Shown: positions 1 through 63,951 of the stretch, piece by piece
Layout of the letters: the number at the start of each line of letters is the position of its first letter
How positions within the stretch are numbered: the stretch's first letter is position 1
Source: Candidozyma auris
Lineage: Eukaryota; Ascomycota; Pichiomycetes; Serinales; Metschnikowiaceae
Reading direction: 5' to 3'
DNA: 64,000 bases
Assembly (NCBI RefSeq): GCF_003013715.1
Contig: NC_072818.1
Coordinates: 682,001-746,000, forward strand
Position numbers and translations under genes: made by a program
Notes under the pieces: model-generated
The model's input: only the letters and a program-made list of their open reading frames with translations
Databases searched by the model: none
What the model was told of the DNA's origin: nothing

Positions 1-509
1 TGTGGGCCCCATTCGATTGCGACCATGTAGTTGTCTGGAGTCAAGAGTGAACCGTCAGAAGTCCAGATGGTGTTGCATACATTTGCCGAAAACGAGTGAC
101 CGTCATACGTTCAGTAAAGTTGTGGACGTGGAGGTGGAGAAGGCGGAAGTGAGTCCATGACTCTGAGGTTGTGTTTGATGGAATTGATACGACGGTGCCG
201 ATTATATGAACGTTTATAATTTTGGGTAAGAATTGAGATTTTGAGATTTAATTTTATTGTCAACCGGCTCTTTAAGAAGATGTTGAAAGTAGGCTAGGTG
301 GTAGGTGCCAGATACATTTGCAACCAATTTCAAACGCAGTAGGAGGATTAGAGGAACGCCGTTCGTGAAGAGGGAGCGAAGGGTTGCCTGATTTGACAGG
401 AATCGTTCAATTTACAAGACTATGATGTTTCTAGCCTCATTCGAGTTTACAAATATTACCTCATTTTGGTGTACCTGAACTCTTGATAGGTTCTATAGGG
501 GCCAGGTAA

Positions 510-520
510 TGGCTGCGAAA
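510..520 (+). promoter_or_regulatory. TGGCTGCGAAA element, exact copy
   Basis: Exact copy of the dispersed 11-mer, about 595 bp before the gene at 1115. Its left flank GGTAA is also found at the 10663 copy, so 16 bases are identical between the two (505..520 and 10658..10673). Function is inferred only from recurrence. Confidence 0.6.
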
Positions 521-633
521 AATGAGATACTAAGGTGGCCAGTGGAGGCATGAAGACATAAAGGGAGATATCTATGGATTCCAATTACTGGAGATAACGC
601 TGGTCAGTTAGTCAGATGATACGATACTATATG

Positions 634-654
634 TTTTTTTTTTTTTTTTTTTTT
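634..654 (+). repeat. Poly-T tract
   Basis: Uninterrupted run of 21 T in the upstream region. Such homopolymers are common nucleosome-depleting promoter elements in yeasts; the exact length is also a likely sequencing weak point. Confidence 0.7.
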
Positions 655-1114
655 CTCATTCTTCATGATATCTTCACATCTCTCTCCAGATTCTGTCCGT
701 TCCTAACAATTTTGCAACTCTCGCTTTCACACCATAGGGAAAAGTGCACATCAAAAATTCAAAAATCAGCTATGACAACCTAAGTAACCAAGTTCAAGGT
801 TAAAATCACCTCTGCTTACCATGCAATTAGCTTTTGGAGAATCTAAAGCTCCGATTTCTACCTGTCTACATCGACCTTACATGGCACAGAGGTAGTATCG
901 GGGCCAACCCACCGGTCACCAATTAAGACTTTCGTCAGAATCGCTCAAAGTGTACAACTTCACCTTCCATGATTCATTAGGTACCTCATCCCCTATCTCA
1001 ATCCCAAAATTGCATTGTCAACTGTGAATCCCCAGATTATCAACGCTAATCATACTACATCGCGGTTCGCATCAACAAACACTACTACTTGAACACCTTC
1101 AACCACATTCCACA

Positions 1115-2065: not shown

Positions 2066-2098
2066 TATATTTACAAGATGAGAGTCTATTTGGTTTCT

Positions 2099-3274: not shown

Positions 3275-4543
3275 TCAGGACTGTAGACTGGCTTCTTTAC
3301 TCAGCTCACCTACGAGCTCTTCTATTTCACGATTCACTAGAGGCATGTTTTGGGAGACCCAACCAGCGTCCCGCAAATGTCTCTTTGGATCAGCTGTTCT
3401 GGGTAGTTTCTGGCACATATCATCGTACAGAGCCTCCTGGGTCTTGTACTCTCTCAACACTTCGTTCGACTCAAAGTCAATGAAAACCCTCGTGTCTCTG
3501 ATTCTGAAGGCCACATCATCCACACGCAAGAAGAACCGACACAAGAGAAGCAAGCACAGGTGCATCACTCTAACTTTGGTGGAGAGCATCGAAATGCCAT
3601 TGTCGCCTAGCTCGTCCTCGAACAAGATGGACTCATCAAAGAACAAGATGGGGTCGGGTCGAAGAAGCTTCTGCACCGGAATAGCCTTTTCTGTAGGTTT
3701 AAATTGAGCCTTCGTTAGTGTGCCCTTGTAGTTTGTAGAGTAGGTCCAATCGTAAGGTTTCACAGATTCAAGCTCTGACCCCGATACCGAGCCAGACCCA
3801 GATGCGGGACCGGATCCTGATAAAGCCTCTTTGTTCACGGCATCAGCTTTAGCCTTGGGCCGCGTGCTGAGCCACTCTTCATAGTAACTGACCTTAAAAT
3901 CGGCCTCTTCGTTTAGTGAGTCCAACGCATCCAAGGTGTTGAATTCAATAGCTGCGCCCGTCTTGTCGTTGACCAATCGCACGTGGTTATTGCCAAATAT
4001 CATCTCTGGCAAAGGAAACTCGAACCTCGTGTCATTCAAGTGGTCCAATTCGTCCAGCAGGAGAATTGGACCCTTCATCGTGTATATGCTCCAATCGTTT
4101 ACTGTAATCGAGGGGTTCTGCTCAAACGGAAACGACGCCTTCGGCAGAGGAATGATCACAGTGCCACAATGGCCACACTGTGGGTTCTCACATTTCCCAT
4201 TGTGACTTTTCGCTGGCACCGAAACTTGTGCCTTTGTGTAATGATTGTGATGGGGATCACTGTAGTTTGGAGCAGCTGTAGTACCTAGAGAGGGGTTCCT
4301 CAAGGGCACTCTGGCATGAAGGTCCTGGGTATTCTGAATAACTGTGTTTGCAGTATGTTCTGGACCTCTGGCTACAGCACTGGCGCTAGCGGTAGGCGGT
4401 AAACGGCCCAGTGTGTGAAGCTTTACTTGTTCTCTTGCTTGGTTTATATGGAAGGCGCTGATACCGTGTTGCGAAGCCGAGGTCGGAGGCACTTTCGGGT
4501 CTGGAGGGTGATCGGGTTTGGAGAATTGCTCTGGCAGAGACAT
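3275..4543 (-). CDS. TIP41: TIP41-like TOR signalling regulator
   Basis: A 422-residue member of the TIP41/TIPRL family, which binds PP2A-type phosphatase catalytic subunits and in yeast interacts with Tap42 to modulate TORC1 output. Family hallmarks are visible: GPILLLDELDHLND and FEFPLPEMIFGNN at about residues 158-186, and the C-terminal RFFLRVDDVAFRIRDTRVF segment at about 340-358. The first 110 residues are a low-complexity Pro/Ser/Thr/His extension, and a Gly-Ser-rich insert (about 243-258) separates the two conserved blocks, making it longer than yeast Tip41 (356 residues). A CTG codon at 3557..3559 falls where orthologues have Ser (VM-P-S), supporting CTG-Ser decoding. The ATG at 4543 is the only reasonable start. 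Confidence 0.93.
   Translation of the reverse strand: MSLPEQFSKPDHPPDPKVPPTSASQHGISAFHINQAREQVKLHTLGRLPPTASASAVARGPEHTANTVIQNTQDLHARVPLRNPSLGTTAAPNYSDPHHNHYTKAQVSVPAKSHNGKCENPQCGHCGTVIIPLPKASFPFEQNPSITVNDWSIYTMKGPILLLDELDHLNDTRFEFPLPEMIFGNNHVRLVNDKTGAAIEFNTLDALDSLNEEADFKVSYYEEWLSTRPKAKADAVNKEALSGSGPASGSGSVSGSELESVKPYDWTYSTNYKGTLTKAQFKPTEKAIPVQKLLRPDPILFFDESILFEDELGDNGISMLSTKVRVMHLCLLLLCRFFLRVDDVAFRIRDTRVFIDFESNEVLREYKTQEALYDDMCQKLPRTADPKRHLRDAGWVSQNMPLVNREIEELVGELSKEASLQS
3557..3559 (-). other. CTG codon at a conserved Ser of TIP41
   Basis: The codon read on the minus strand as CTG follows VMH. TIPRL/Tip41 proteins usually have V-M-P-S here, so Ser is the expected residue. It is one of the in-sequence indicators of the alternative yeast code. 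Confidence 0.65.
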
Positions 4544-4965
4544 GGAAAATGGTATATAAGGATGTAGGAGATGAGGTTCGGAAGACTGGCGGAAGAAGGT
4601 AGGTGTTGAGGTTACTTACTGTCTGGGGTGCCCTTAGTACAGGAAAGGGTAGTTGTACGAAGAGGCTATGGAGATGGGAATAGGAGACGGGAATAGTGGT
4701 AAGAGAAGACAATTTTTCTGAATGATGTAAATTCGTCTAAATAAAACTCTAGAAAATAGATGGGGAAGATTCGGGGTGGTGTATGAGATTGTAGGTGAAG
4801 GTTAATCAAATGGTGATGATGGTGAGAAATGGTTGCAAAACTCTTTATGAGTCGTCTCACTATGTGGCCAAATAACAATGAGGAATGAGCCGTAGACCCC
4901 TATGAGGAAGCAATGAACAGTTGAAGAGGATAGTGTTTACTCTGTTGATACAATCAACCTTTATT
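4544..4965. other. TIP41 promoter and GDE1 3' flank
   Basis: Purine-rich upstream region of TIP41 with a TATATAAG at 4553..4560 only about 10 bp from the ATG, probably too close to act as a TATA box. One TGGTTGCAAAA element lies at 4830..4840. No ORF is credible. Confidence 0.5.
4830..4840 (+). promoter_or_regulatory. TGGTTGCAAAA element (TGGYTGCRAAA family)
   Basis: Variant copy of the dispersed motif (Y=T, R=A), about 290 bp upstream of the TIP41 start codon. Confidence 0.45.
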
Positions 4966-7900
4966 CTAGTACACTGCCTCTTCTTCCTTTCTAAGTCCCT
5001 CTCTCACCGCCAACACAGAGTCAGCGATCACAGCATCGACACCAGCCTTCATCTGGATCTTGCATGCCTCTGGATCGTTGTTTTCCACGCCGTAAGTCAC
5101 GCAAACCAAACCGGAGCTCTTGACAACCTGGGCAAGTCTAGGCGTCTTGACCAACGTTTTGGCATTGCTGACAATACCCAATAGATTCCACTTTTTGGCA
5201 AATCTGATGGCGTTTTGCAACGAAGATGCTCTGATGTCGGCCATAGGCTCAGTGCCTGCTTCAGTCAAGTATAAAATCGGCATCGTTGGCTGCTTCAAAG
5301 AGAGCAAGAGACATATATCAGGATGGAACGACGAGAACAAAATGTCTCTTCCACTATTGTTCTCCTCGTAAACTGTCTTCAAGATGGTATCGACATAGAA
5401 GTTCATATCGTAGGCAACCTCTCCCATACTCTCATGCTGAGCCTCATCCAACATAGGGTACTTGAGTTCGATGTTGAAGCCAACATTCTTGGGTAATTTC
5501 TGGAATAGCCTTTTCAAGGTGACAAAGTTCGACGCAACAGACAAACCTCTTGCGTTACCCTTGAAGCCCTTCTCCTTCCAAGTTTTCGTAAGCTTCATTC
5601 GGTTGGATATCTGGCTCTGAAATTCTCTGTCCAACTCATCCTCCTCTGCTCTGGATGCGAAGTTGGGCGCCGATGGGTACGACGACATCGATCTAGGTCT
5701 GTTGTATTTTCCTAAAAGCTCGTCATCAAGGGCGAAGTTTTTTGTGATGTTCAAGTTGTTGTTGACCTTGTCGTAACTCAAAAATTTGGCATTCTTCTTT
5801 GTGGATGCCTCATGCTCACTGAGACCCAAGAACTGCTCTTCCGTCAATGCATGCATTGGAATATCGACACCAGACTCCGCAACCAAAAAGTCGTGGTAAA
5901 TAACAGGAACATGATCTTTGGTGAGTTGGACATCAAACTCTACGTACGAAGCACCCAAAGAAGCAGCGGCGATGAAAGACTCGACCGTGTTTTCACCCAA
6001 CTGTAAAGAGTCTCTTTTGTTCATGTTTTTGCCCAAACCTCTGTGGCCTATAACTCTTGTGGAAACCAACTGCTTCCAATAAGTGTCAGAGCGAGTGATG
6101 GAAATCTGATGGTGGTCGAACGACTTGGCGCACATGTACTCACATTTGAGAGTGCCCAACATCTCAAGTGAGTCCAATTCCAAAATTGGAACGGTGATAG
6201 TGTTGTGAAGCGAACGCAATTTTTCGCCCACCTTCGTGTAAGCACTATTCAACAAAGCGACACCTCTGCCCAAAATCTTGCCCTTCATGGCACCCTTGTG
6301 TGTGTTCTGAAGGTTACTCGTAGGATACTGATACGTTGGCACGATGTCAAAGTTTACCACCATATCGTCAGCGCAGAAGCCAGCATCGAGCTTAAATGTG
6401 ATTGGATCGGTGGCACTGCCATGCTGATCTTCCAATGGCAAATCAACCACAACGGGAGCTTCGATCACATCTTTTGTAACTTTATGACGACAAGTGACAA
6501 CCAACGAAAGAGCAGTATCAAGTTCAGTAAAGAAACTCTGAGACATGGAGATCTTGTTGAGATCAATAGGTTTCAGCTGGTCACGCAAATCTGTTGTACC
6601 TAAAGTGATCAAGATCAACAGCTCACCCTTAGCCAAGTATCTATGACCAAAGGACTTGATGGGTTTCATCTTACGACGGCTAGCAGGAGATCTTGATCTG
6701 GAATGACTTCTGGCACGCGAGCGGTCTCTGCCATGACCATTCAGACCCCCATTGTTGATGTTGCTGGTTGAGCTGCTGTCGATCTGCTTGAACTGACGGT
6801 AAACCTCGTTCACAGCGTTTCTGTTCAGCTCTGGAAGCTTTTCAATAGAAGAAGTTGACATGAGCATTTCCTCGCTAGTTGGATGCAAGAAGGGCGACGT
6901 AGTGTTTGATCCATTTCTTGAAGACGGGTTGTGAGTTCTTGGGGTATTCTTTGAAGGGTCGTCGATGTTGTACAAAAGCAAGTTGTCGTCGGAGGGCTTC
7001 AACAAGTCTGCAACAGCTAAATGACCACGCAAGGAAGCGTGCTCCATAGGCAACCAACCAGAATCGTCCACCAAATCGTATCTGGCTGCATAATCAATCA
7101 AGGTCTTGACGACATCTTCAAAACCTTCTGCGGCAGCAATGAAAATAGGTGTCCATCCAAAAACACACTCACCCAATTCTGTATCAGCACCTTTTTGCAA
7201 TAAGTACTTGACAGTGTTCAATTGGTTGAGCTTGGAAGCAACATAAAGAGCAGTCTCCTCATTGTTCTCAGCATCAGTGTAGTTGATGTCAACAAGATTA
7301 CATTCAAGAAGATTGCGAAGAATGTCCTCACAATCAAGCCTAGTTGCCAAGAGCAACAAGTTTGGACACGACAAAGGCAGACTATTCACAGCAAGAAGGT
7401 TTGCTGTCGTCTTGGGATGCTTTCCAATGATAGAGAGGTGCAAAGGAGTCAAACCTTCTTGGTCACCCCATGCTTCCACCAGGTCAATAGGAATAGCAGG
7501 ATCAATCAAGTTCCATTTTTTCATGTACTCCAAAAGCAAAGAAGTGACGTCTTTGGTACCGTATTGAGCAGCATAGTGGACAGGTGTTCGTAAATAGGTA
7601 TCCTTGGCTATAAGGAGACTTTGATACTCAGGGTATTTCTCTACCTTCTGCAAGATGTGAGCCAAACCATCGATACGAACAGGGGAAAGCTGAGATCCGT
7701 CAGGTCCACTCTCGTTTCCGTACAAACGCTTGATGTCGCTCGATTCTCCAGGATTAGTCTGCTTCTGCTCCTTGATTAGCTGCTTCTTGCCCAAAGAAAC
7801 AACATGTTGATGGAAGAAGTTTCTGCCGGAAATATCTATTGAGTCAAACAAAGCATTACTATCACCCACCTCTGCAGCGTGCGTTTTGGTGAAATCGACT

Positions 7901-8835
7901 AAATAATCGAAAAGGCGATCAGTACACGTTACCGAGTTAGCGAGAGTGGCCTTGTTGAGCAACGAGAGAAACAACTTGACAGACTTTTGGCCCCAGTCCA
8001 AAGCGTCGAGCTCAGCAATAAGCTTGTCTGCTTCGTTCTGGTAGATGAGCTCATAGAAGTTCTCCATAAACTCCTTATCGAATGAATAGCGCCTGTTACC
8101 ACCAATCTTCAACACGTTCAAGTTCTGCGTTGTTTTCGATACCTCCTTCTCGGCCTCTAAGGTATTCTCCAACTCAATTTGCTGGTCGCCCAATTGGTTC
8201 AAGATCTCATTGATCGTATCCAAGCCGGCCTGAAGTTCGACGCCGTTGGCAAAGGGCAAAGCGTCAACTCTGGTGGTCAAGTAGATTTCTTTGTTGTTAT
8301 TAGGCAAATTCACCTGGGGCACGTTCTCCTGATTGTCTTCATCGGAGCCCAGCGCATCTACACGCAATTGGTCGTTGGCCAAGTTTGTCAAGTAGAGCAA
8401 CTTCTTATCGAGCTTCTTTAAGATCTTGATGAAACCCTTGTGATTCAACTCGCCGAACCACTTCAAGTTCCTGTAAATTGCACGAAGCTCCAACGAGATC
8501 GACACGATCTCATCAAGCTCATCTGTGGTGTCGACCTGGTGGGTGATTTTCCCATTGGTGTAGCCCAACACATGGACAATCCGGGCGGTTCTTCTGGAGT
8601 ACTCATTATACTTGGCGTTGTAAAATTCAGACACTCTTTCGATATCTCTATCAAGCTCGTAAAAAAATTGGGAAAGGACTGTCAGAATAAGCTCCGGGAG
8701 CTCCAAGGGCGAGTAGGTGTGGTAGTTGATGAATTTGTCGATGGTTTTGATCACTTTCTTCAAGTGCTTATAATTCATGTAATGGACCGACCATTCTGGA
8801 ATCTGGTGGGACAAGAAGGTCTTGCCGAATTTCAT
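4966..8835 (-). CDS. GDE1: Glycerophosphocholine phosphodiesterase, SPX-ankyrin-GDPD
   Basis: A 1289-residue protein that hydrolyses glycerophosphocholine to choline and glycerol-3-phosphate in the cytosol. Three parts are visible. The SPX domain is at residues 1-220 (MKFGKTFLSHQIPEWSVHYMNYKHLKK start, inositol-pyrophosphate/phosphate sensing; stated as residues 1-20 plus the YKHLKK motif). Ankyrin repeats run at about 410-605 (RTPVHYAAQYG, GLTPLHLSIIGKH, TALYVASKLNQ). A C-terminal GDPD domain starts at about residue 927 with HRGLG, GENT and VEFDVQLTKD, then YHDF with the catalytic His. A Ser/Arg-rich linker lies at about 690-730. Length fits the yeast orthologue (1223). The ATG at 8835 directly begins the SPX domain. 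The upstream region contains two CACGTG boxes, one CACGTGGG, as expected for Pho4 control of this phosphate-scavenging gene. Confidence 0.95.
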   Translation of the reverse strand: MKFGKTFLSHQIPEWSVHYMNYKHLKKVIKTIDKFINYHTYSPLELPELILTVLSQFFYELDRDIERVSEFYNAKYNEYSRRTARIVHVLGYTNGKITHQVDTTDELDEIVSISLELRAIYRNLKWFGELNHKGFIKILKKLDKKLLYLTNLANDQLRVDALGSDEDNQENVPQVNLPNNNKEIYLTTRVDALPFANGVELQAGLDTINEILNQLGDQQIELENTLEAEKEVSKTTQNLNVLKIGGNRRYSFDKEFMENFYELIYQNEADKLIAELDALDWGQKSVKLFLSLLNKATLANSVTCTDRLFDYLVDFTKTHAAEVGDSNALFDSIDISGRNFFHQHVVSLGKKQLIKEQKQTNPGESSDIKRLYGNESGPDGSQLSPVRIDGLAHILQKVEKYPEYQSLLIAKDTYLRTPVHYAAQYGTKDVTSLLLEYMKKWNLIDPAIPIDLVEAWGDQEGLTPLHLSIIGKHPKTTANLLAVNSLPLSCPNLLLLATRLDCEDILRNLLECNLVDINYTDAENNEETALYVASKLNQLNTVKYLLQKGADTELGECVFGWTPIFIAAAEGFEDVVKTLIDYAARYDLVDDSGWLPMEHASLRGHLAVADLLKPSDDNLLLYNIDDPSKNTPRTHNPSSRNGSNTTSPFLHPTSEEMLMSTSSIEKLPELNRNAVNEVYRQFKQIDSSSTSNINNGGLNGHGRDRSRARSHSRSRSPASRRKMKPIKSFGHRYLAKGELLILITLGTTDLRDQLKPIDLNKISMSQSFFTELDTALSLVVTCRHKVTKDVIEAPVVVDLPLEDQHGSATDPITFKLDAGFCADDMVVNFDIVPTYQYPTSNLQNTHKGAMKGKILGRGVALLNSAYTKVGEKLRSLHNTITVPILELDSLEMLGTLKCEYMCAKSFDHHQISITRSDTYWKQLVSTRVIGHRGLGKNMNKRDSLQLGENTVESFIAAASLGASYVEFDVQLTKDHVPVIYHDFLVAESGVDIPMHALTEEQFLGLSEHEASTKKNAKFLSYDKVNNNLNITKNFALDDELLGKYNRPRSMSSYPSAPNFASRAEEDELDREFQSQISNRMKLTKTWKEKGFKGNARGLSVASNFVTLKRLFQKLPKNVGFNIELKYPMLDEAQHESMGEVAYDMNFYVDTILKTVYEENNSGRDILFSSFHPDICLLLSLKQPTMPILYLTEAGTEPMADIRASSLQNAIRFAKKWNLLGIVSNAKTLVKTPRLAQVVKSSGLVCVTYGVENNDPEACKIQMKAGVDAVIADSVLAVREGLRKEEEAVY

Positions 8836-9175: not shown

Positions 9176-9186
9176 TGGTTGCAAAA
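9176..9186 (+). promoter_or_regulatory. TGGTTGCAAAA element (TGGYTGCRAAA family)
   Basis: Variant copy of the dispersed motif, about 340 bp upstream of the GDE1 start codon and next to the two CACGTG boxes. Confidence 0.45.
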
Positions 9187-10662: not shown

Positions 10663-10673
10663 TGGCTGCGAAA
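10663..10673 (+). promoter_or_regulatory. TGGCTGCGAAA element, exact copy
   Basis: Exact copy about 337 bp upstream of the YIP1 ATG. It shares the extended left flank GGTAA with the copy at 510. Confidence 0.6.
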
Positions 10674-11009: not shown

Positions 11010-11774
11010 ATGTCATACTATCAGCATAATCAACCAGATAATATGCAATTCTACCAGTCAAACTATGCCAATGCCGCGTTTCAGCAACCGAACGTCGCCA
11101 GCCCCAACTTGGGCTCGATGGACCTGATGTTTGGGGCTCATTTCGACGTCTCTGGCGATATGGGTGGTGAGCTCACGCCAGGCATAATTGCTGCTTTCGG
11201 TACCTCGGGATACCCGGGAGAACCGCCATTGTTGGAGGAGTTGGGGATAAACTTTCTGCATATCAAGGGCAAAACGCTAGCGGTGTTGAATCCCATCAGG
11301 AGGGACGTGAACCCGGAAATTATGGCTGACTCCGACTTGGCCGGGCCAATCTTGTTTGTGTTGTTGTTTGGCACTTTGCTACTATTATCCGGCAAGCGAC
11401 AATTCGGTTATGTGTACGGTGTGGGTGTGTTTGGCATTGTCAGTTTGCATTACCTTTTCAAATTGATGAGTAGAGACGTTCAAATTGACTTGACACGCTC
11501 AGCGTCGATTGTTGGCTACTGTCTATTACCATTGGTGTTCATATGTGCTTTGGGTCTCGTCATATCATTGGACTCGACAATTGGCTACTTGTTGAGTGCA
11601 TTTGCCGTTTCTTGGTGCACCTTTAGTGCCTCTGGTCTTTTCATTACTGCTTTGAAATTGCACAACATGCGTTCCTTGATCGCTTACCCCCTCGGCCTTT
11701 TCTACTCAGTTTTTGCCTTGATGGCTATCTTCGTCGACTCTAAGCACGGCGACATCAAAATGCTGGCCACGTAG
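11010..11774 (+). CDS. YIP1: YIP1-family Golgi/ER Rab-interacting membrane protein
   Basis: A 254-residue protein with a Gln/Asn-rich cytosolic N-terminus (residues 1-65), the conserved EPPLLEELGINFLHIKGKTL motif at about 71-90 and five hydrophobic segments between about 115 and 250 (for example FVLLFGTLLLLSGK, VGYCLLPLVFICALGLVI, LSAFAVSWCTFSASGLFI). This is the standard Yip1 layout. Yip1 binds prenylated Ypt GTPases and acts in COPII vesicle biogenesis and ER-Golgi transport. Length matches S. cerevisiae Yip1 (248). The ATG has an ACC context (tcaccATGtc). MSM1 follows on the same strand after about 100-140 bp, so the two genes share a tight tandem arrangement. Confidence 0.93.
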   Translation: MSYYQHNQPDNMQFYQSNYANAAFQQPNVASPNLGSMDLMFGAHFDVSGDMGGELTPGIIAAFGTSGYPGEPPLLEELGINFLHIKGKTLAVLNPIRRDVNPEIMADSDLAGPILFVLLFGTLLLLSGKRQFGYVYGVGVFGIVSLHYLFKLMSRDVQIDLTRSASIVGYCLLPLVFICALGLVISLDSTIGYLLSAFAVSWCTFSASGLFITALKLHNMRSLIAYPLGLFYSVFALMAIFVDSKHGDIKMLAT

Positions 11775-20303: not shown

Positions 20304-20314
20304 TTTTGCAGCCA
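20304..20314 (-). promoter_or_regulatory. TGGCTGCAAAA element (TGGYTGCRAAA family)
   Basis: Variant copy on the minus strand only 45 bp before the ATG of the gene at 20359, the closest spacing in the window. Confidence 0.5.
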
Positions 20315-26252: not shown

Positions 26253-26537
26253 GGTGAAGGCAGTATATGTGGATTGATGATGCTTGGAGTTTTAAGTAGT
26301 GAGATTGAAATCTCGATATTATTTCGCACCCAAGTCTGGGGAACCTTAGCAAGGAAGCACTACAATTGGAGATGGGAAAATACATTCAAAGACCACAAAT
26401 ATTGAACTCGATACGCTCTACACTTGGCTGATGAAATAATATTACTCTCATATACAACCGATAGTGGCCGGCACATGCAGTTGAATGGTGCTGAGGACCT
26501 CATATATGGGTAGCTCCACGTATCAGTGTTTTTTCAT

Positions 26538-32261: not shown

Positions 32262-32306
<45 letters not shown>

Positions 32307-41771: not shown

Positions 41772-41776
41772 AGACA

Positions 41777-42229: not shown

Positions 42230-43034
42230 ATTTGAAGTGATGAAATGGGTGCAAAAAGTCAGAGAGCGCGAAGTGAAGTGTGAGGTAGCTTAGAATGAGG
42301 CGCCAGATAGACATGAGATCCGTGCTTTTAGAAGATTATATTGTTAGAGTTGAATTTCATTAGAAATAGGGTCTACTTTGCTATTGATTTTTATGATTAA
42401 AATAGAATGATATCATCGTTTTTATCATGTTCATCTGGCTCTACACTTGTCTGGTAGGAACTGAAGGCTCTGCCTCATGCCTCCTTGCAAACCTTGAACA
42501 GCGTCGTGCCATTCGCCCAAACTATCAAAATTCAATTGTCTAACAATACAAATTCACCTACTCAAATCAGTGAAACCCTCTGCAGGTGACGTTCCTGCTC
42601 GACAATTGCCCTTCATTTTCACTCCCAGAATACATCCTGGCTGCGAAAAGCGGTTCCCATACTTTGTAATTGAAGGATCCAACACAGACAGGAGGCGGCA
42701 TACTTCAAATAAAATAAAGTGAGAGCAACTCAGCTGAAATTTCTTTCTGACACTCCAAACACCAATCTCCATTCTGGTTCTCCATCTGCGACACCTGGTG
42801 GTGGCACCAGTGATACTATTCTGCAATGTCCCGGTTTAAATATTTAACAACAATTAAATGTAAACTACCAACCCACAACTCTAATATTAACATTATTTCT
42901 ATTAACCACGTTCATCCATCTTTAAACTCCTTTGTTGTACTTCTCTGATCTCAGATCCTCTCGGCTCGGTTCCTTTACATAATCTATATGGGCCCTGAGC
43001 ATATCGGCTCTGATTACCAACCACTTCCTTCTCC
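42230..43034. other. Divergent promoter region before HUL5
   Basis: About 800 bp, AT-rich, with an exact TGGCTGCGAAA at 42638..42648 near the middle. Short ORFs only; the 90-codon minus-strand frame at 42554 does not look coding. Confidence 0.5.
42638..42648 (+). promoter_or_regulatory. TGGCTGCGAAA element, exact copy
   Basis: Exact copy about 387 bp upstream of HUL5 and 409 bp upstream of the orphan gene at 42229, nearly central between the two starts. Confidence 0.6.
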
Positions 43035-53272: not shown

Positions 53273-53875
53273 TTAGTTCTTCCCGCCGGCGGCAGCAGCA
53301 GCAGCAGCGGCCTCCTCCCGCTTCTTCTTCTTCTTATCGTCGATCTGCTCCACCTTGACTTCATCCAAGCCTTTCTCCTCTAACAACTTCTCAATGTACG
53401 CCCTGGCCTCATCGCTCACATCACCCTGAACGACAATTTCGTCTTTCTTCTCGGCGTTCTTCACCACCGAGGCACCTGTGGCAAACTTCTGCGCAAACGT
53501 CTTGGACAATTTCTTCATGTCAATGTTGAACACCTCTAAGCCACCGATGGAAATGACGTGCTTCCTTCTGTTTCTCTCGATCCTCTTGATAACCACCTTT
53601 GAGGCGAGCTTCTTCTTCAACTCCCGCTCCGCCTTGGCCTCCTCCTTTGCCTGCTTCTTCTCCAAGTCCTTGTGGATTTTCTCTTCCTTCTCGATCGACA
53701 ACGTCAGGGTTGCGTTGGCCAACGCTTCATCACTGTACAACTTTTCGAAAATCTCCTTGTGGTTTTGACTGAGCCACTCTCTGCACTTTTTGAACTGGCC
53801 TCCAAACTCGCAGTATTCAGGGGGAAACGAGCAAACTTCGCAATATGTGACAGTCTTGGGAGCAATCTCTGTCAT
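53273..53875 (-). CDS. TMA22: Translation-machinery associated protein, DENR homologue
   Basis: A 200-residue protein from ATG 53875 (MTEIAPKTVTYCEVCSFPPEYC); the upstream frame is a Ser/Leu-rich leader artefact. An N-terminal cysteine motif (YCEVCSFPPEYCEF) is as in DENR. A coiled Lys/Glu-rich middle (about 60-100) and a C-terminal SUI1 domain at about 95-180 (VVIKRIERNRRKHVISIGGLEVF in part, KFATGASVVKNAEKKDEIVVQG in part, then DVSDEARAYIEKLL) are also present. Tma22 with Tma20 removes deacylated tRNA from recycled 40S subunits and limits reinitiation. The end is Lys/Ala-rich with a 9-Ala tract. Length matches yeast (198). Confidence 0.95.
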   Translation of the reverse strand: MTEIAPKTVTYCEVCSFPPEYCEFGGQFKKCREWLSQNHKEIFEKLYSDEALANATLTLSIEKEEKIHKDLEKKQAKEEAKAERELKKKLASKVVIKRIERNRRKHVISIGGLEVFNIDMKKLSKTFAQKFATGASVVKNAEKKDEIVVQGDVSDEARAYIEKLLEEKGLDEVKVEQIDDKKKKKREEAAAAAAAAGGKN

Positions 53876-54665
53876 GGTTGTGTAAGTTGAAGGGTGATGA
53901 TGGAGTTTAAAGATGAAGAGTGAAGCCGATCGGTTCTCGTTATGTGTAGGTCGAAGAGGAGGAAGGAGGAGGCATGAGGTGGACGACTTGGGAGTAAGAC
54001 TTGGCAAAATGGTTTCTTGAATAAGTTTGCAGTAAGGAGTGATGAGTGTTGAGGTCACTTTTAAATTTGTCAGTACTTGTGTGTGCATTGCCGATTTTGA
54101 GCTAGGTTACTTGTTTGCAGACATAGATCAAGGAAAGTAGTGATCAGGGCGTTGGGCCGAACCTACCACTTCGATAACTTTCAAGACATTCAGTGGTGCT
54201 ATGGTGATTTAGAATGATCAAAGATGTTGAAATTTGTAGTTTACGACTCGACCTTCTTACTGAGTAGTGTTTACTCAAAACAACGTGGGTGAATGAGACA
54301 ACACAGGTGAACTCTCATGGTTCTGTGCTGGAAAAATACCAGATCCCGATTCGCTGCAATTTAGCTGACACCGTGAAGTTATTTATAAATTTATATATAG
54401 GTTCAAGTGTGTGGTCCGTTTCTTTCACTCAGTTTTATGGTTATCCTCACGATGAGGTTATTGGCTGCGAAAAGTCATTGCAGCACTTAGATAACGAGTA
54501 GCATCTAAACTAATGAGAATGCTTAATATTACGTTGACATTGCCACATCAAAGCTCTTTTTATTTCATCCTATAATTACACATTCTTTCTTTTGTCTCTT
54601 TCTTCATTTTTTTTCTTTCTTTTTATTTTGGGGATGCCCCTCTCATTGTCACAGTCTATTTAATT
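53876..54665. other. TMA22 upstream region and YPP1 3' flank
   Basis: About 790 bp. An exact TGGCTGCGAAA lies at 54462..54472, about 590 bp before TMA22. A T-rich tract near 54585-54630 probably belongs to the YPP1 3' end. A 70-codon plus-strand ORF at 54289 is not convincing. Confidence 0.5.
54462..54472 (+). promoter_or_regulatory. TGGCTGCGAAA element, exact copy
   Basis: Exact copy about 587 bp upstream of the TMA22 ATG, with a GGTTAT left flank similar to the copies at 510 and 10663. Confidence 0.6.
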
Positions 54666-57467
54666 TCAAACCCAGTCCTCACACACAGAGTATGCTCTCA
54701 CGGGGCGTTGGTTCTCAAGCTCAACACACTTCCAGAGTGCCTCGTTCAACAAGAGCTTGTCGTCAAATTTCTCGTAAATTGCGCTCAAGTAGTACCAAAC
54801 CTCAGGGCAATTGTATCCATATGGCCAACAGTGTGTGTACTCCTCCAAGTAGTTCTTGATACGGATTAGACCGGCATCAACATCCTTGTTGGAGATGAAG
54901 AGAGAGTTGCTTGGATCGTCGTCCTTTAGGAAAAGCTTGCACATGCCAAGTAACGTGACGCCATAGGCTTTTTTGTTGAATTTCTCTTCTGGGTGATGGA
55001 ACTCCTCCAAAGATCTCTCAAACTCCTGGAGTGACAAGAACTTGCGGTATTTGGACGTCAAGAGACCCAAGTACGTATGTGTCTTAACGTTGGGCGGTGA
55101 TACCGTTTCCGCCTCGACGATACACTCCTCGGCCTCCTCCATCGATCCCAATCTGAGGTAGATGGACGCAGCCCATAACCAAATCTCTTGCAAAACACGA
55201 CGGGCGGGCTTAGAAGAGCTAACTGCCTCTTGATGTGCTTTAGTTGAAGTCTTACCGGCGCTGTTGCTCTCAATTCCAACTCTGGACAACCTCTTGATCT
55301 TATCTTTGGCAGCACGGTGCTCTCTCAGAGACGACTTGTCGACCTTGAGCTCTGGCACTGAAGGGTCAACCACACTTGGGCGATGTGACCATTTGCTCTC
55401 GGCTCTTGAATTAACCACGGACAAGCGTGGAGGCTGGAGACTCTTCTGGGGTGGCTCTGGTTTGGAATCGCCCAGTTCAAATAGCTCACGGTATAAGACA
55501 AACACTTCGGCAATAGACTCTAAAATATACTCGATGCCGTGCTTCGCCTCCCACATTGCTAGTTGCGTCATCTTTAATTGCAAAATAGAGTACTTCTTCT
55601 GAAATGAAATACTCGTACCTTTCTGCTGACATTTTTGCATGTAAAGGCCAGCAATGTTCAATGCATCCTCCACAAAACTTTCCAGTTCAGATGACGTTAA
55701 TGGCTCGCTACGAGACTTCTTGAGGTCGTCCAAGACAGCAGCATTATTAGCTTCGTTGGATCTGTCATCAACACTCGATGCCTTTGTTTCATCGGCCGAA
55801 AGTAGCAAGACAAGCAAATTCCACACTTGAAATTGCTCCGGGTACTTCTTCAAGATAAATTTGCACAATTTGATGGCAGGTTCCACGAACCCGTTATACG
55901 ACAACTCCAATGCATAACGGAATAGCAAAGTCGAATTCCCTGTCGAGTTCACAATAAGACTGTTCTTCCAATACTTGAGCACTAAATCGACATTCTTTTT
56001 CATGATTTCCGGAGTTGGCGATTGGTGAGAAGTTAAATAAGAATAAAAGTCACCAATGACAAACCACGCTTTTGCCACAGTTTTGACAAACTTAGACTGG
56101 TCAGACATCACTAAATTCGTGTTATATCTGTGATAAAGGAATGACAATCTGTTGCTTTGCAAACCGGCCTCTTCGTCGTAGTGCAAATCTGCCACTTTTG
56201 CAAGCTCACTCAAGTAATGCAAAAGCTTCTCTGTGAAAACCTTGAGCTGCTCCACTACCGTATACAAATCGTTATACTTGAACTTTTTGGTGATGTCGCC
56301 TTCTCTTGCAACTGGAATGAACGAATGTTTGGGATTGAAGTGTTGGAGACACACGGTATAAACGTCAATGACGTCAAGGATATTGTTTACACGACCGTGG
56401 TTTTGTTCCTGATCTTTCTCAACGTAGTCAATGTAAGTCTTGAGAGCAGCAATGGCTTCATCGTACTCTTCCAAGTCTAGCAAAGTTCTAATCAAGTTAG
56501 AAAGAATCGCAAAACTCTGATATGTCTTTTCCGTCATATTTACCAAAAACTTCTTTGAAAGTTTTGGCTTGAGTACCTGGGCCACGAGCGGTCTCTGTGA
56601 GGAAATGTCATTGATAGACTCGTAAAGAGAGTTGATGAAGGTTTCTTCCTCGCAGTTCTCAACAGAAGCATCTGGGAAGTCTTTTTTTTGCTTCACTTTA
56701 GTGTTGATGAGCTCCGTCAAAAAGACGTTGAAGTCATTTTTGAATTCCTTGATCACGTACTTTTCGTTCTCTGGTCTCAAGCAAAAGCTCGAGATAGCTA
56801 TCACACTGCATGCGTTTTCGCTAAATGATTGAGAGATGATATCTTTGAATCTCAACGGCCTGGCGCCATTGGAGCTCAAAAGGCCAACAACTCTAAGCAA
56901 GATTGTGTCCTGCCACCTGTTAGCAGCAATCTGGCTCTTAGTACCATAATTCGTCAATTTAGCCAAGTACTCGAGCCAGTGCTTGTAGGCACCCTCTCTC
57001 TTGCCCGAGCCGAAAAGAGCGTAGAATCTGGCAGTCAAGTACTCAATGAAGTCAGTTTGTGCTTCAGATTCCAGGTGTGGAGAGCCACTTAACGAGAACA
57101 GCGAAAGCGTTGCCGACATGTTCTCATATTCGAAGCTCAAGTAGTGCAAGTCTGCCAACACAACGGTATAATACAAAGATTCTGAGTAAGATTGGCTCCT
57201 TTTGGAGTAATTGGCATTGACTGAAGTGATGTAATTCTTCAACTCGGCCAATTTTTCAGTGGCTGACCGGGCAGCCTCGGTGTTCTTATTCGACGAAGCA
57301 ATAGCATCGCCTAGATCGTGCTGAATTAGCAACTGAAGTTGATAATCGACAAAAGCAATCTGCTGGAAGAAGTCGGGCGACTCTTGAAAGTCTAACACAT
57401 TTTGTGGGAAACTTCCTAATGAAAGTGTCCTCATATACCTCTCATTTGGAGAGGCCTCGATAAACAT
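54666..57467 (-). CDS. YPP1: Ypp1/TTC7-like subunit of the PI4-kinase Stt4 complex
   Basis: A 933-residue helical-repeat protein from ATG 57467 (MFIEASPNERYMRTLSLGSF); the frame extends 26 codons upstream, but that extension is not protein-like. TPR-like helices run along most of the length (VLADLHYLSFEYENMSATL, WAASIYLRLGSMEEAEECIV, VKTHTYLGLLTSKYRKFL). A charged, probably disordered insert at about 690-780 (HRAAKDKIKRLSR) and a C-terminal block GYNCPEVWYYLSAIYEKFDD then ALWKCVELENQRPVR are typical of the Ypp1/TTC7 family. Ypp1 with Efr3 anchors the PtdIns 4-kinase Stt4 at the plasma membrane and supports endocytosis. Yeast Ypp1 is 817 residues. Confidence 0.88.
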   Translation of the reverse strand: MFIEASPNERYMRTLSLGSFPQNVLDFQESPDFFQQIAFVDYQLQLLIQHDLGDAIASSNKNTEAARSATEKLAELKNYITSVNANYSKRSQSYSESLYYTVVLADLHYLSFEYENMSATLSLFSLSGSPHLESEAQTDFIEYLTARFYALFGSGKREGAYKHWLEYLAKLTNYGTKSQIAANRWQDTILLRVVGLLSSNGARPLRFKDIISQSFSENACSVIAISSFCLRPENEKYVIKEFKNDFNVFLTELINTKVKQKKDFPDASVENCEEETFINSLYESINDISSQRPLVAQVLKPKLSKKFLVNMTEKTYQSFAILSNLIRTLLDLEEYDEAIAALKTYIDYVEKDQEQNHGRVNNILDVIDVYTVCLQHFNPKHSFIPVAREGDITKKFKYNDLYTVVEQLKVFTEKLLHYLSELAKVADLHYDEEAGLQSNRLSFLYHRYNTNLVMSDQSKFVKTVAKAWFVIGDFYSYLTSHQSPTPEIMKKNVDLVLKYWKNSLIVNSTGNSTLLFRYALELSYNGFVEPAIKLCKFILKKYPEQFQVWNLLVLLLSADETKASSVDDRSNEANNAAVLDDLKKSRSEPLTSSELESFVEDALNIAGLYMQKCQQKGTSISFQKKYSILQLKMTQLAMWEAKHGIEYILESIAEVFVLYRELFELGDSKPEPPQKSLQPPRLSVVNSRAESKWSHRPSVVDPSVPELKVDKSSLREHRAAKDKIKRLSRVGIESNSAGKTSTKAHQEAVSSSKPARRVLQEIWLWAASIYLRLGSMEEAEECIVEAETVSPPNVKTHTYLGLLTSKYRKFLSLQEFERSLEEFHHPEEKFNKKAYGVTLLGMCKLFLKDDDPSNSLFISNKDVDAGLIRIKNYLEEYTHCWPYGYNCPEVWYYLSAIYEKFDDKLLLNEALWKCVELENQRPVRAYSVCEDWV

Positions 57468-57803
57468 TATAGCAGTGATAGGGAAAAACTCTCTAGTAGG
57501 AAATGTTCTGAAAATATAAATAAATATCGGGCAAGGACGACTCAAGGAAAGAGGACGCTGAAAAGATCGCTCTCACGGGTAATTTCTTTTACTCGTGCCC
57601 AGCTGTCAAAAAGGTACCCCAAATTTTTAGCACCTCCCTCGCTTTTGTCATGTTCTTCACATAGCCGTGGTTGAATGTGCGCCTGAGAAAAATCACACTA
57701 ATGTCCAGTTCCCTGTTTGGGCAATTTTTCGCAGCCATAGGAAAAAGAAAGTTATGCAAACACATGCTGGGCGCTTCACATGGTTAGAAGTGTGGGGTTC
57801 AGT
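57468..57803. other. YPP1 promoter and MLH1 3' flank
   Basis: About 336 bp with an exact minus-strand TGGCTGCGAAA at 57727..57737, about 260 bp upstream of YPP1. No other element recognised. Confidence 0.5.
57727..57737 (-). promoter_or_regulatory. TGGCTGCGAAA element, exact copy
   Basis: Minus-strand exact copy, 260 bp upstream of the YPP1 ATG and just past the MLH1 3' end. Confidence 0.6.
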
Positions 57804-60956: not shown

Positions 60957-62184
60957 CTTTTTCAAATTCATAATTATCAACGCTTTCCCAACCGCCTGCG
61001 TCTATAAGCTGATCGAGGGGCCACTTCCTTATGGGCAATACGTCTAAAGTGGACTTGAGCCTCAATTGCTCGAAAATTCCCATTCCGGCAACGCCAATCA
61101 TCAGAGCATTGTCAGTACAGATTTTGAGGTCGGGAAAATGAAAATTGAGCCTGCTTCCAGGCTTCAACTCGGTGAAAAGCCTCCGTCGAAGTTCCTGATT
61201 GGCTGCAACGCCTCCAGAACAGACAAAATCTTCGACGCCAGCAAACTCGCCATCTGCCAAATGCTTTTGAAAGGCCAAATTGACCCTATCTATCAAATGC
61301 TCAAATACCAGATCCTGAATTTTGTACGCTAGGAATTGTTTGGTATGCTCGTCTATATCGTGACGAGCCATGTGGTCCTTGATCGAGCTGAGAAGAAATG
61401 CAAATGTGAAAGTAATTGTGTCAGGCACTTTCTGATGTTTGGCCTTCCGCAAAGGTGGCTTTAGTTTGAAGTTAAAGTGGTTATTTCTATCTAGAGTGCG
61501 AATTGTTTGAAACTGTTCTAGTGTGCTCGATGGTATTGATGCAACATACTTTTCAAGCTCGGGTCCTATCATGTTGCCTCTCATTCCCAACTCTCGAGCT
61601 GCTTTGTCAATTGCATCGCCACAGGCAATGTCCATCGTGTTTATGATAATCCTGTGATCTGTGAAAGATTTCAGCAAAACTAGCATCGTGTGACCCCCAC
61701 TACATAGGAGACTGAGAAATGGATATTGTGGAGGAGCCTGCTGGGGATTATGGATGCTAGGCAAATGCAGCGCTAGTATGTGGCCTAGCATATGGTGAGT
61801 CCCGATGAAAGGCACATCCCACGCTAAAGAGAGCCCTTTGGCAAATTGCAAAGCCAGGCTTAAGGAACCGACCATTCCTGGTCCTCGTGTGACACATAGT
61901 AGATCAGGCTTGTTTTGGGCGTCAATCTTATGTTTCCGGCAAAAGTCTCTTACCAAATCGGGCATCACCTTCAGATGAAACTCATGTGCTGCCGTAGGAA
62001 TCACTCCTCCAGCCTCAACTGATCTAAGGGTCCTCTTCATCTCATCAATCACCACTGGTTGCGAAGACGGATGCTGCTTCTCAAGCAAAGCCACGCAAGA
62101 ATCATCACACGACGACTCAAGCGCAAGGGCCCGATAACTTCTAGCAGCAAGACGTTTATTCAAGAACCGTCTCGAAGGAAGCAT
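60904..62184 (-). CDS. QRI7: Mitochondrial t6A synthase Qri7 (Kae1/TsaD family)
   Basis: A 426-residue protein from ATG 62184, giving MLPSRRFLNKRLAARSYRAL, which parallels the yeast Qri7 presequence; the frame stays open to an ATG at 62241 (19 more residues), but a CACGTG at 62232..62237 lies inside that extension. Family motifs: LESSCDDSCVALL, VEAGGVIPTAAHEFHLK, the metal-binding HHMLGH, CSGGHTMLV, GDAIDKAARELGMR, FVCSGGVAANQELRRRL and CTDNALMIG. Qri7 makes N6-threonylcarbamoyl-adenosine in mitochondrial tRNAs without KEOPS partners. Its last 53 bp overlap NSE4 tail to tail. Confidence 0.94.
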   Translation of the reverse strand: MLPSRRFLNKRLAARSYRALALESSCDDSCVALLEKQHPSSQPVVIDEMKRTLRSVEAGGVIPTAAHEFHLKVMPDLVRDFCRKHKIDAQNKPDLLCVTRGPGMVGSLSLALQFAKGLSLAWDVPFIGTHHMLGHILALHLPSIHNPQQAPPQYPFLSLLCSGGHTMLVLLKSFTDHRIIINTMDIACGDAIDKAARELGMRGNMIGPELEKYVASIPSSTLEQFQTIRTLDRNNHFNFKLKPPLRKAKHQKVPDTITFTFAFLLSSIKDHMARHDIDEHTKQFLAYKIQDLVFEHLIDRVNLAFQKHLADGEFAGVEDFVCSGGVAANQELRRRLFTELKPGSRLNFHFPDLKICTDNALMIGVAGMGIFEQLRLKSTLDVLPIRKWPLDQLIDAGGWESVDNYEFEKVTGWTEDPRLQEHPDEE

Positions 62185-62778
62185 ACATGAGACAGTTGAT
62201 TGATGATGAGCTAATGTGGGGCGCTTGAAGTCACGTGACATGGACTCAGATCATGACAACGATTTTTTGCATAGCCCGGGGTTAACACATTCTTCGGGGT
62301 TATTGCTTGGACATTCTTTGCCTTGGAATTCGAAATTTCATCCATCATCGTGGAATTTATTTTGTTCCGTATTATTCGGCCGAAACGTCAATCGCGCCAA
62401 TCACCGTCTGCTAAGCGAGATCGCTAGTTGAAGCTCCTACACCACACATCTTACACTCCAAAAACAAAAAACAAAAAAACCATAGAAAACCGCATCCTAA
62501 GAATAGCAGTTTTTTGTGATATCCTCCTCGATTTCCACCTTCCTTCCTTGGGTATGCTGCTTCGTCAATGACCTCTTCATGAGTTGGTGTAAAGGTGTGG
62601 CCTCGAAAATCTTCACTCGCTGAGCTCTGTTATTAGGATTCCCTTTTCCATTCCATTTGCAGCTTTCTCGACAACTAACGCCGTCACGGCGCCATTTCAT
62701 TAATTGTTTGCCCCACGCATGAAAGCTTCTTCAAGTAAGGCTGCCATTATTTATTCCTTCGCATTTCCCATCACATAA
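62185..62778. other. Divergent promoter region QRI7/MME1
   Basis: About 590 bp. A TCACGTGAC box sits at 62232..62237 near QRI7. A minus-strand 67-codon ORF (62497..62700, MKWRRDGVSCRESCKW) has acceptable codons but no known similarity. A short A-rich tract lies at about 62459-62480. Confidence 0.45.
62232..62237. promoter_or_regulatory. TCACGTGAC (Cbf1 consensus) upstream of QRI7
   Basis: Palindromic Cbf1-type site 48 bp upstream of the preferred QRI7 start at 62184. Its position inside the longer frame favours the shorter protein. Confidence 0.5.
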
Positions 62779-63873
62779 ATGTCACAGTCGTTGACAACGT
62801 CCGCTATACCGACGCCGTTCCAGCCCCATCGAGAAGTTCATATCCATCATGAAAAAACGCCACCCTCATCAGAAAGAGAACCATCGAAATCGCCAGAAAC
62901 TGAAACCGGCTCTCCTCTATTGAGTTGTATGTTGGCTGGTGGCTTCGGCGGCGCTATCGGCGACTCGGCCATGCACTCTTTGGACACAGTGAAGACGAGG
63001 CAACAAGGGTTGCTGTTCAATCCGAAATATAAGAATATGGTGCCTGCGTACCTAACGATTTTTAAAGAAGAAGGATTTTTCAGAGGTCTCTACGGAGGTT
63101 ACACACCAGCGATATTGGGATCTTTTCCATCTACAGCGACGTTTTTCGGCACTTATGAATTCTCCAAACGTTTCATGATAAACACATTGCACATGAACGA
63201 TACTGTTTCGTACTTCATTGCAGGGATTTTGGGTGATTTGGCCCTGAGTGTATTTTATGTGCCTTCCGAGGTTCTCAAAACGAGATTGCAGTTACAGGGC
63301 CGCTACAATAACCCATTTACACAAGGATGCGGATACAATTATAGAAACCTTCGGGACGCCGTCAGGCTGATAGCCAGATCAGAAGGAACGTCGGCTTTGG
63401 CGTACGGGTATAAGGAAACACTTTTGAGAGACTTGCCTTTTAGCGCCTTACAGTTTGCGTTTTACGAGCGGTTCAGGAAATGGGCCATCTTATACAACAA
63501 TTCAGATCAAGATTTATCCTTTGCGCTAGAGTTACTGACAGGTGCGGCGGCAGGTGGGTTGGCGGGTGTACTCACTACTCCCTTGGACGTGATCAAGACG
63601 AGAATCCAGACTGCCACCGTTGCCACTGCAGGGTCCCACGCACCATACATCACGTCATCTAAAGGTGTCATTGGCAAATTCCTTCATAAATTCTCCACCA
63701 TTAGTGCTTTGCATTCAATCTATAGAAACGAGGGCATCTACGGGATGTTCTCTGGCGTGGGACCCCGGTTTATCTGGACGGGTATCCAGAGCTCGATTAT
63801 GCTCTTGCTTTACCAGATGACACTCAAACGATTAGACGCTGTGTTTACTTCCGAAGATCTGTTGGAAGCTTAA
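62779..63873 (+). CDS. MME1: Mitochondrial carrier, Mme1 type
   Basis: A 364-residue mitochondrial carrier family protein. After a 45-residue polar N-terminus, three repeats of about 100 residues each carry the signature P-x-[DE]-x-x-[KR] or a variant: SLDTVKTRQQG (first, with Ser for Pro), VPSEVLKTRLQ (second) and TPLDVIKTRIQ (third). The third repeat end SGVGPRFIWTGIQSSIMLLLYQ and RDLPFSALQFAFYERF match the YMR166C/Mme1 subgroup, reported as a mitochondrial magnesium exporter (yeast 368 residues). Two CTG codons (in AVR-x-IARSEG and EL-x-TGAA) read as Ser under the clade's code; the second is Leu in the yeast homologue, so it is not discriminating. The substrate is inferred from the family. 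Confidence 0.85.
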   Translation: MSQSLTTSAIPTPFQPHREVHIHHEKTPPSSEREPSKSPETETGSPLLSCMLAGGFGGAIGDSAMHSLDTVKTRQQGLLFNPKYKNMVPAYLTIFKEEGFFRGLYGGYTPAILGSFPSTATFFGTYEFSKRFMINTLHMNDTVSYFIAGILGDLALSVFYVPSEVLKTRLQLQGRYNNPFTQGCGYNYRNLRDAVRLIARSEGTSALAYGYKETLLRDLPFSALQFAFYERFRKWAILYNNSDQDLSFALELLTGAAAGGLAGVLTTPLDVIKTRIQTATVATAGSHAPYITSSKGVIGKFLHKFSTISALHSIYRNEGIYGMFSGVGPRFIWTGIQSSIMLLLYQMTLKRLDAVFTSEDLLEA

Positions 63874-63940
63874 CAACAGCCACATGTATATATATGGGCA
63901 CACAGGTAATACACAACAATAAAGATCCAGTGGGGCGTTA

Positions 63941-63951
63941 TGGTTGCAAAT
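63941..63951 (+). promoter_or_regulatory. TGGTTGCAAAT near-match element
   Basis: One mismatch (final T) to TGGYTGCRAAA, about 70 bp past the MME1 stop, perhaps upstream of the next gene outside the window. Confidence 0.35.

Follow-up and report, generated by a model that had tools for sequence, protein, structure and literature searches.

A 64-kb stretch of the Candidozyma auris genome (contig NC_072818.1, positions 682,001 to 746,000; referred to below as the window) carries many copies of a short DNA element, with TGGYTGCRAAA as its strict form and TGGBTGCRAAW as its broad form. The element is real, dominant, and promoter-centred. Genome-wide, the strict word occurs 1,878 times (966 and 912 matches on the two strands), compared with 21 matches (12 and 9) for the same pattern read backwards. 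Judged from sequence features, a single abundant promoter protein probably recognizes TGGBTGCRAAW in a sequence-specific manner, and this CTG-reading yeast would use it as a general regulatory factor. Elements of this kind are known, and the literature that we searched suggests that the word itself and the scale of its use are new. General regulatory factors set which promoters open, and which protein holds this role outside Saccharomyces is a largely open question. With about 1,900 strict copies of one dominant word, the question becomes directly testable, each copy predicting the centre of a nucleosome-free region.

Abundance and anatomy of the word

The genome analyzed comprises 12.25 Mb with 46% GC and is divided among seven contigs, the longest of 3.15 Mb and the shortest of 0.88 Mb; the reversed pattern served as the genome-wide control. 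The window encodes an Mlh1-type protein whose best named relatives, among the 120 matches listed, come from Sungouiella intermedia (66% over 64% of the query) and Metschnikowia bicuspidata (58% over 100%), followed by other CTG-clade yeasts; proteins of source 'lgn' are closer, the top two at 77 and 76%, and the matches suggest a yeast of the Metschnikowiaceae. Placement and context were studied in a 314-kb sample consisting of the window and 25 further stretches, which contains 172 open reading frames (ORFs) of at least 100 codons and is 70% coding; ORFs in the window were called with translation table 12. The selection of stretches was not random, and the figures barely change upon removal of three stretches that had been picked in view of their matches. 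An iterated profile was trained on the sample sites, and the strict and broad patterns were scored independently of this profile.

A preliminary description, made from the sequence of the window alone, had reported the strict word as enriched far above chance. The window contains 15 matches, whereas 100 dinucleotide shuffles gave a mean of 0.26 and a maximum of 2, and the genome-wide count given above, which that description had proposed as a check, points the same way. Its nine exact copies of TGGCTGCGAAA and six further matches to TGGYTGCRAAA were all recovered in place. Five of its seven one-mismatch forms were also correct (at 316, 28050, 49033, 51680, and 63941), whereas those at 30633 (CGGCTGCGAAC) and 34723 (CGGTTGCGAAT) in fact have two mismatches each.

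Genome-wide, TGGGTGCRAAA has 285 matches versus 11 in the control, and TGGATGCRAAA has only 60 versus 9. Among matches carrying R at position 8, the counts for the base at position 4 are 1,454 (C), 424 (T), 285 (G), and 60 (A), in agreement with the sample profile given below. All three A-type matches in the sample lie inside ORFs. The iterated profile reads AATGG[C.59/T.26/G.14]TGC[A.56/G.39]AA[A/T] and holds 15 bits summed over 13 columns, which corresponds to an element of about 13 bp. Outside positions −2 to +10, all columns of the sample alignment have at most 0.1 bit, in agreement with the earlier remark that the flanks diverge.

Genome-wide, the 11-mer shows a strong coupling between its positions 4 and 8, with an odds ratio of 6.2 (C–G 926, C–A 528, T–G 94, and T–A 330 pairs, the last number being obtained by subtraction). 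This coupling may reflect nonadditive recognition by one protein or the presence of two paralogous readers.

After count and low-complexity filters, the most over-represented intergenic word at each length from k = 7 to k = 10 is part of the element. In the 112 sampled intergenic gaps that contain promoters (75 tandem and 37 divergent gaps; 28 further gaps are convergent), the strict word has 41 matches compared with 0.3 in shuffles, a 154-fold excess, and TGGBTGCRAAW has 63 compared with 0.6. The whole sample contains 82 matches to the broad pattern, which extrapolates to approximately 3,200 in 12.25 Mb. Eight pairs of profile sites (>9 bits) lie less than 80 bp apart, too few to reveal a spacing preference.

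Literature searches with the full word and with shorter and IUPAC forms returned no description of it, only papers on apparently unrelated subjects, subscription papers and figure logos being largely outside their scope. The word is likewise unnamed in the available portions of PMC7565893, PMC2897762, PMC7559329, PMC12607694, PMC9925049, PMC5063960, PMC3814328, and PMC4212969.

Placement in promoter-containing gaps

The sites are strongly confined to noncoding DNA. In the sample, 48 of 54 strict sites fall outside ORFs, in 30% of the DNA, at a density 18.8-fold above that in ORFs. The preliminary description had called all but one of the matches in the window intergenic, and this is correct, with 14 of the 15 clear of any called ORF and the exception, the site at 30871, inside the ORF at 30842–32104. 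Some of the DNA counted as intergenic is probably intron, because TACTAAC shows a 2.2-fold excess in the DNA preceding called ORFs, where introns close to gene starts would place their branch points.

With the profile threshold set at 12 bits, the tandem gaps hold 56 matches, the divergent gaps 35, and the convergent gaps one. At least one such match is present in 40 of 75 tandem and 21 of 37 divergent gaps, that is, in 61 of the 112 promoter gaps, and in one of 28 convergent gaps. Neither orientation is favoured: counted with respect to the gene, the strands of sites in tandem gaps divide 27 to 29.

Distances from site to ATG span 8 bp to beyond 1 kb. The densest bin is 250–300 bp, with 3.3 sites per kb (19 sites in 5.8 kb); the other bins mostly hold 0.5–1.8 sites per kb, with two at about 2.5. 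An earlier claim that the sites lie mostly 250–400 bp upstream of an ATG holds roughly. In the window, 10 of 15 sites are 248–408 bp upstream of a start codon; of the five others, one is located within an ORF, and the distances for the rest are 44, 90, 594, and 803 bp. In the sample, the peak at 250–300 bp stands on a broad distribution that starts at 0 and continues past 800 bp.

A symmetric composition switch at the sites

The sites sit on a switch in strand composition, the DNA being T-rich on the 5′ side and A-rich on the 3′ side, with a reversal about 100 bp out, a feature that the preliminary description did not mention. For the profile of this switch, the two sides were pooled and read outward from 97 profile sites above 13 bits, with 1,292 control positions. 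The outward A–T skew in the first four 20-bp bins is +0.13, +0.17, +0.15, and +0.07, that is, A-rich over 80 bp; it crosses zero near 100 bp, turns T-rich at 120–180 bp (−0.13, −0.12, and −0.12), and is near zero beyond 180 bp except in one bin (420–440 bp, −0.08). At the control positions, the skew stays within 0.03 of zero all along. The A+T content 60–140 bp from the sites is 0.61–0.62, compared with 0.56–0.57 in the controls. Runs of five or more bases follow the same pattern, with 13 T runs and 5 A runs on the left of the sites and 23 A runs and 7 T runs on the right.

Expressed as a skew step across the site, the mean over 73 TGGBTGCRAAW sites is +0.304, with a positive step at 64 of them. 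None of 5,000 draws of random promoter positions reached this mean, the largest being 0.148. Ranked within its own gap, the step at a site has a median at the 83rd percentile, and 44 of 72 sites fall in the top quarter, where 18 are expected. The step is present whichever strand carries the motif and whether the gap is tandem or divergent; within tandem gaps, it is seen towards the gene and, more weakly, on the far side. It amounts to 0.21–0.40 in all six variants at the B and R positions (n = 3 to 30 each). Matches in coding DNA (sets of 20 and 7) show no skew step, and among eleven control words, nine have none and GATAAG has the opposite step (P = 0.02).

On the gene side, the DNA at about 130–190 bp from the site is pyrimidine-rich (0.57–0.58), with C reaching 0.31 at 158–188 bp. 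Such a stretch would suit a zone of transcription start, and, combined with the peak of ATG distances at 250–300 bp, it would correspond to 5′ leaders some 100 nt long.

In Saccharomyces cerevisiae, poly-T followed by poly-A gives the most robust nucleosome-free region, according to the available text of de Boer and Hughes 2014 (PMC4212969). By this precedent, the T-rich/site/A-rich arrangement would place the sites where a nucleosome-free region should centre. The likeness to the poly-T/poly-A turnstile described there lies in the order of the two tracts at the centre of the nucleosome-free region. Here, in contrast, the switch is centred on one word, a feature that the available part of that paper does not describe, and the A/T runs are only oriented differently from those of controls, not longer.

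Genes downstream of the sites

In the sample, 56 genes have a site within 700 bp upstream. Pfam scans of 40 of them, with E values up to 1e-8, assigned a family to 34. These families include TIP41, Yip1, CTLH, MMM1, CTP transferase, ANTH, Rpp20, DENR/SUI1, FIT, HAD, TAFII55, Kre9, Mgm101, MAS20, CPSF73, Hus1, NOB1, HDA2-3, PNPOx, Snf7, Lon, deoxyhypusine synthase, Sec23/24, rhomboid, alcohol dehydrogenase, Pho86, and LSM, among others, and no single pathway stands out. Of the 59 genes without a site, 30 were scanned, all from site-free gaps, and 28 gave a family, again a varied set (SOD, MetRS, Spt4, 60KD_IMP, ribosomal L24e, DBP10, TIP49, tRNA synthetase class II, ATP synthase C, MFS, and others). 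Families concerned with making ribosomes seem more frequent in the site-free set, although the numbers are too small for a test.

Fourteen proteasome genes were found, and the promoters of four were read (500 bp before the domain start); none of the four carries the site. Three of these four promoters contain CACGTG, the Cbf1-type word, and the fourth contains TCACATGA.

Comparison with known factors

Twenty-nine words and poly-A were counted in the 112 sampled promoter gaps and compared with shuffles. The sites of Reb1, Cbf1, Abf1, Tbf1, and Rsc3, which differ in sequence from the new element, are present at only 0.7- to 1.6-fold (CACGTG 1.6, TTACCCG 1.6, the Abf1 word 0.9, ARCCCTAA 0.7, and CGCGCG 0.7), and MCB, SCB, Mcm1, PAC, Ume6, and others are near or below background. 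Words above background are poly-A (9.5-fold by overlapping counts; 33 gaps versus 12), TATA (2.5-fold), the Aft-type word YRCACCC (1.7-fold), which overlaps the G variant of the motif, and CACAAA (1.3-fold). Three more exceed background on few copies, namely a Rap1-type word (6-fold, 4 copies), the S. cerevisiae type of Rpn4 word (5-fold, 3 copies), and the X-box (1 copy).

In function, the closest parallels are the sites of general regulatory factors of S. cerevisiae (Reb1, Abf1, and Rap1), which are likewise short, orientation-free, and promoter-restricted, occur at many promoters with diverse targets, and share the sequence context expected of a nucleosome-free region; they differ in the word. 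Cbf1 (CACGTG), a general factor of other yeasts, has the same proposed role, and its word is only 1.6-fold enriched in the promoters sampled here; genome-wide, TCACGTGA occurs 265 times versus 159 in its control. For Reb1, the word TTACCCGG has only a third as many genomic matches as the same word reversed (116 versus 360).

As far as the available text goes, Tsankov et al. 2010 (PMC2897762) regard Cbf1 as a major ancestral factor and hypothesize that D. hansenii, C. albicans, and Y. lipolytica use other factors; the strain list in that text contains no species of the Metschnikowiaceae. From similarly partial text of other papers, the Reb1 orthologue of C. albicans yields TTACCCGG in ChEC-seq (PMC7565893), C. 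albicans Rep1 is reported to prefer an adenine-rich motif and Ndt80 to prefer CACAAA (PMC9925049), and C. lusitaniae Mrr1 binds CGGAGWTAR (PMC12607694), a word that differs from the element described here.

Several known words do share part of the element. The Rpn4 proteasome element, GGTGGCAAA, with the C. albicans form GAAGGCAAAA, resembles its right half (GC[A/G]AAA). The RFX half-site shares GGTTGC with it, and the Ndt80 element GNCRCAAAW aligns with the motif in most columns. An RFX X-box has a second half-site, which is absent here, there being no information beyond positions −2 to +10, and position 4 of the present element is mostly C. In the sampled promoters, the X-box word has one match versus 0.1 expected and the Ndt80 word has 8 versus 13.2 expected. 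The genome encodes three Ndt80-type and two RFX-type DNA-binding domains, for which the present analysis found no link to the element. Rpn4 itself was rejected, both on the four proteasome promoters and on the number of sites, which is far too large.

The Rap1 word of S. cerevisiae has four promoter matches versus 0.7 expected. A telomere-type Rap1 site is disfavoured because the telomere repeat does not contain the word: in the terminal 160 bp, 12 of 14 contig ends carry a repeat of about 20–21 bp, CTTAGGTGGTGTCTGGGTTT, with small variation in length. In the terminal 1.5 kb, TGGBTGCRAA has nine matches at eight of the 14 contig ends, all outside the telomere repeat. The initial statement that the element matches none of a series of named consensus sequences thus holds for those tested through promoter and genome counts, the telomere repeat, and the proteasome promoters.

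Proposed role and alternative explanations

The general regulatory factor suggested in the preliminary description finds support in the genome-wide excess of the word, its restriction to promoter gaps, the use of both orientations, the variety of targets, and the symmetric flank centred on the site. In the mechanism that we propose, the protein would bind TGGBTGCRAAW and either hold nucleosomes off or recruit remodellers, and the flanking T-rich and A-rich DNA would let remodellers push nucleosomes outward. A nucleosome-free region about 200 bp wide would form, with initiation on one or both sides.

Several observations weigh against this proposal or limit its reach. The element is not universal, because 51 of the 112 sampled promoter gaps and all four proteasome promoters lack it. 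The numbers of gaps with 0, 1, 2, 3, and 4 sites (51, 40, 15, 3, and 3) are, by eye, close to a Poisson expectation of 59, 30, 13, 5, and 2, and the depletion of convergent gaps rests on 5.3 kb of DNA (P = 0.02). A general regulatory factor was also expected to go with a depletion of TATA boxes and with longer A/T runs, and neither was seen: TATA frequency does not differ between tandem promoters with a site (4 of 32) and those without (6 of 30), and the mean A/T run is of similar length near sites and in matched controls (5.8 versus 6.0). The control word GCGAAA, which overlaps the motif, has a weaker step in the same direction (0.126, P = 0.003), weak sites (9–15 bits) show a small, nonsignificant step (P = 0.05 and 0.09), and the step is negative at a few sites in the window (30028, 20304, and 30871).

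An alternative that deserves weight, unlikely as we consider it, is an ordinary regulatory factor of the Ndt80, RFX, Aft, Rpn4, or APSES type with a shifted specificity and a very wide regulon, which would activate or repress genes but not organize chromatin. The lack of a TATA or A/T-run difference at site-bearing promoters fits this explanation, as do the Ndt80- and RFX-type domains encoded in the genome. In a column comparison with 61 consensus sequences, a crude procedure that names no factor, the nearest were Aft1, Rpn4, and YY1 (0 of 200 column shuffles as good), followed by Ndt80, the RFX half-site, RRPE, and Sok2 (2 of 200 each). Against it stand the absence of an obvious common pathway among the 34 target genes with a Pfam family, the low promoter counts of the X-box and Ndt80 words, the site-free proteasome promoters in the case of an Rpn4 type, and the symmetric composition switch, which points to promoter architecture rather than to a regulon. 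It is distinctly improbable that two paralogous factors read the element, one recognizing TGGCTGCGAAA and the other TGG[T/G]TGCAAAA, as the coupling of positions 4 and 8 might indicate. One protein with nonadditive recognition also explains the coupling, the composition step is similar in all variants, and five of the six variants avoid ORFs alike, the T–A variant doing so less (4 of 14 in ORFs). This possibility overlaps with that of a single general factor, and the probabilities expressed here accordingly do not sum to one.

The remaining explanations are much weaker. The preliminary description had also considered an origin-associated factor, and the intergenic, orientation-free placement with A-rich DNA on the 3′ side would suit an element bound by the origin recognition complex (ORC). 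Yeast genomes have a few hundred origins, and the 1,878 strict and approximately 3,200 extrapolated sites are several times what origins need; this limb is unsupported because of the excess of sites and their avoidance of convergent gaps, and we regard it as very improbable. Still less credible is a signal acting in RNA (a motif of untranslated regions, or a signal for processing or termination) or an initiator or other core-promoter element; the sites do lie near gene starts, but the equal strand use in tandem gaps and the wide range of ATG distances argue against both. The chance that the sites are copies of a dispersed repeat or of transposon ends, or an artefact of base composition, is close to negligible, since the flanks in the sample share no common sequence and shuffles and reversed controls yield almost no matches; the point in favour of a transposon is a Tc5-type transposase ORF in the sample. 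That ORF, of 824 aa (sample stretch L010:6251–8725, + strand), contains Tc5-type DNA-binding and DDE_1 transposase domains.

A wider proposal can be made, for which we hold the chances to be slightly short of even. A lineage of CTG-reading yeasts may have given promoter opening over to one undescribed general factor that reads TGGBTGCRAAW at about half of the promoters; its flanks would have coevolved to form, together with the site, a symmetric module (T-rich/site/A-rich) some 200 bp long from which bidirectional nucleosome-free regions arise, and Reb1-type sites would have been purged. We know of no single classical factor present at as large a share of promoters. If true, this would be a clean case of the replacement of a chromatin-organizing factor. 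The Metschnikowiaceae include emerging opportunistic yeasts, and knowledge of the promoter grammar of the family would help in reading regulatory variants in them.

Sites in the window

The window contains 22 matches to the element, including the 15 strict ones; a tRNA scan of the window found no tRNA gene, and Rfam at gathering scores gave no match there. The site with the largest skew step (+0.92) is the strict site TGGCTGCAAAA at 37921–37931 (−), upstream of an Rpp20-family gene (38196–38735, +). Other strict sites lie upstream of genes with a recognizable product: TGGTTGCAAAA at 4830–4840 (+) by a TIP41-like gene (3275–4543, −), TGGCTGCGAAA at 10663–10673 (+) by a Yip1-domain gene (11010–11774, +), TGGCTGCAAAA at 23784–23794 (+) by a CTLH-domain gene (21216–23693, −), and TGGCTGCGAAA at 54462–54472 (+) by a DENR/SUI1-type gene (53273–54088, −). 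Variant sites are found upstream of MMM1 (25200–26252, −), with TGGGTGCGAAA at 26322–26332 (−), and of an ANTH-domain gene (32125–34257, −), with TGGGTGCAAAT at 34530–34540 (+).

Two same-strand pairs occur. The variant TGGTTGCGAAT at 28050–28060 (+) precedes the strict site TGGTTGCGAAA at 28064–28074 (+) by 14 bp; the strict site lies in a divergent gap next to a gene for a cytidylyltransferase (26538–27815, −). The second pair, at 30871–30893 with a spacing of 12 bp, consists of the strict site TGGCTGCGAAA at 30871–30881 (−), 29 bp past the ATG of the ORF at 30842–32104, and a one-mismatch copy at 30883 (−). The same ORF (+) has a strict TGGCTGCGAAA 803 bp upstream, at 30028–30038 (+), with a skew step of −0.38.

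Further strict sites are TGGCTGCGAAA at 510–520 (+; step +0.42), TGGTTGCAAAA at 9176–9186 (+), 340 bp from the ATG of the ORF at 4966–8835 (−), TGGCTGCAAAA at 20304–20314 (−; step −0.23), 44 bp upstream of the ORF at 20359–21219 (+), and TGGCTGCGAAA at 28587–28597 (−), 316 bp upstream of the ORF at 28914–29327 (+). The same word TGGCTGCGAAA is also present in the divergent gaps 39345–40006 (at 39596–39606, +) and 42229–43035 (at 42638–42648, +), and upstream of the ORF at 54666–57467 (−) (at 57727–57737, −). The variant TGGGTGCAAAA at 42246–42256 (+) is just upstream of the ORF at 41777–42229 (−). The variant TGGTTGCAAAT occurs at 316–326 (−), with a skew step of +0.33, and near the window end at 63941–63951 (+); its third match, at 40535–40545 (+) inside the ORF at 40006–40707, is probably due to chance.

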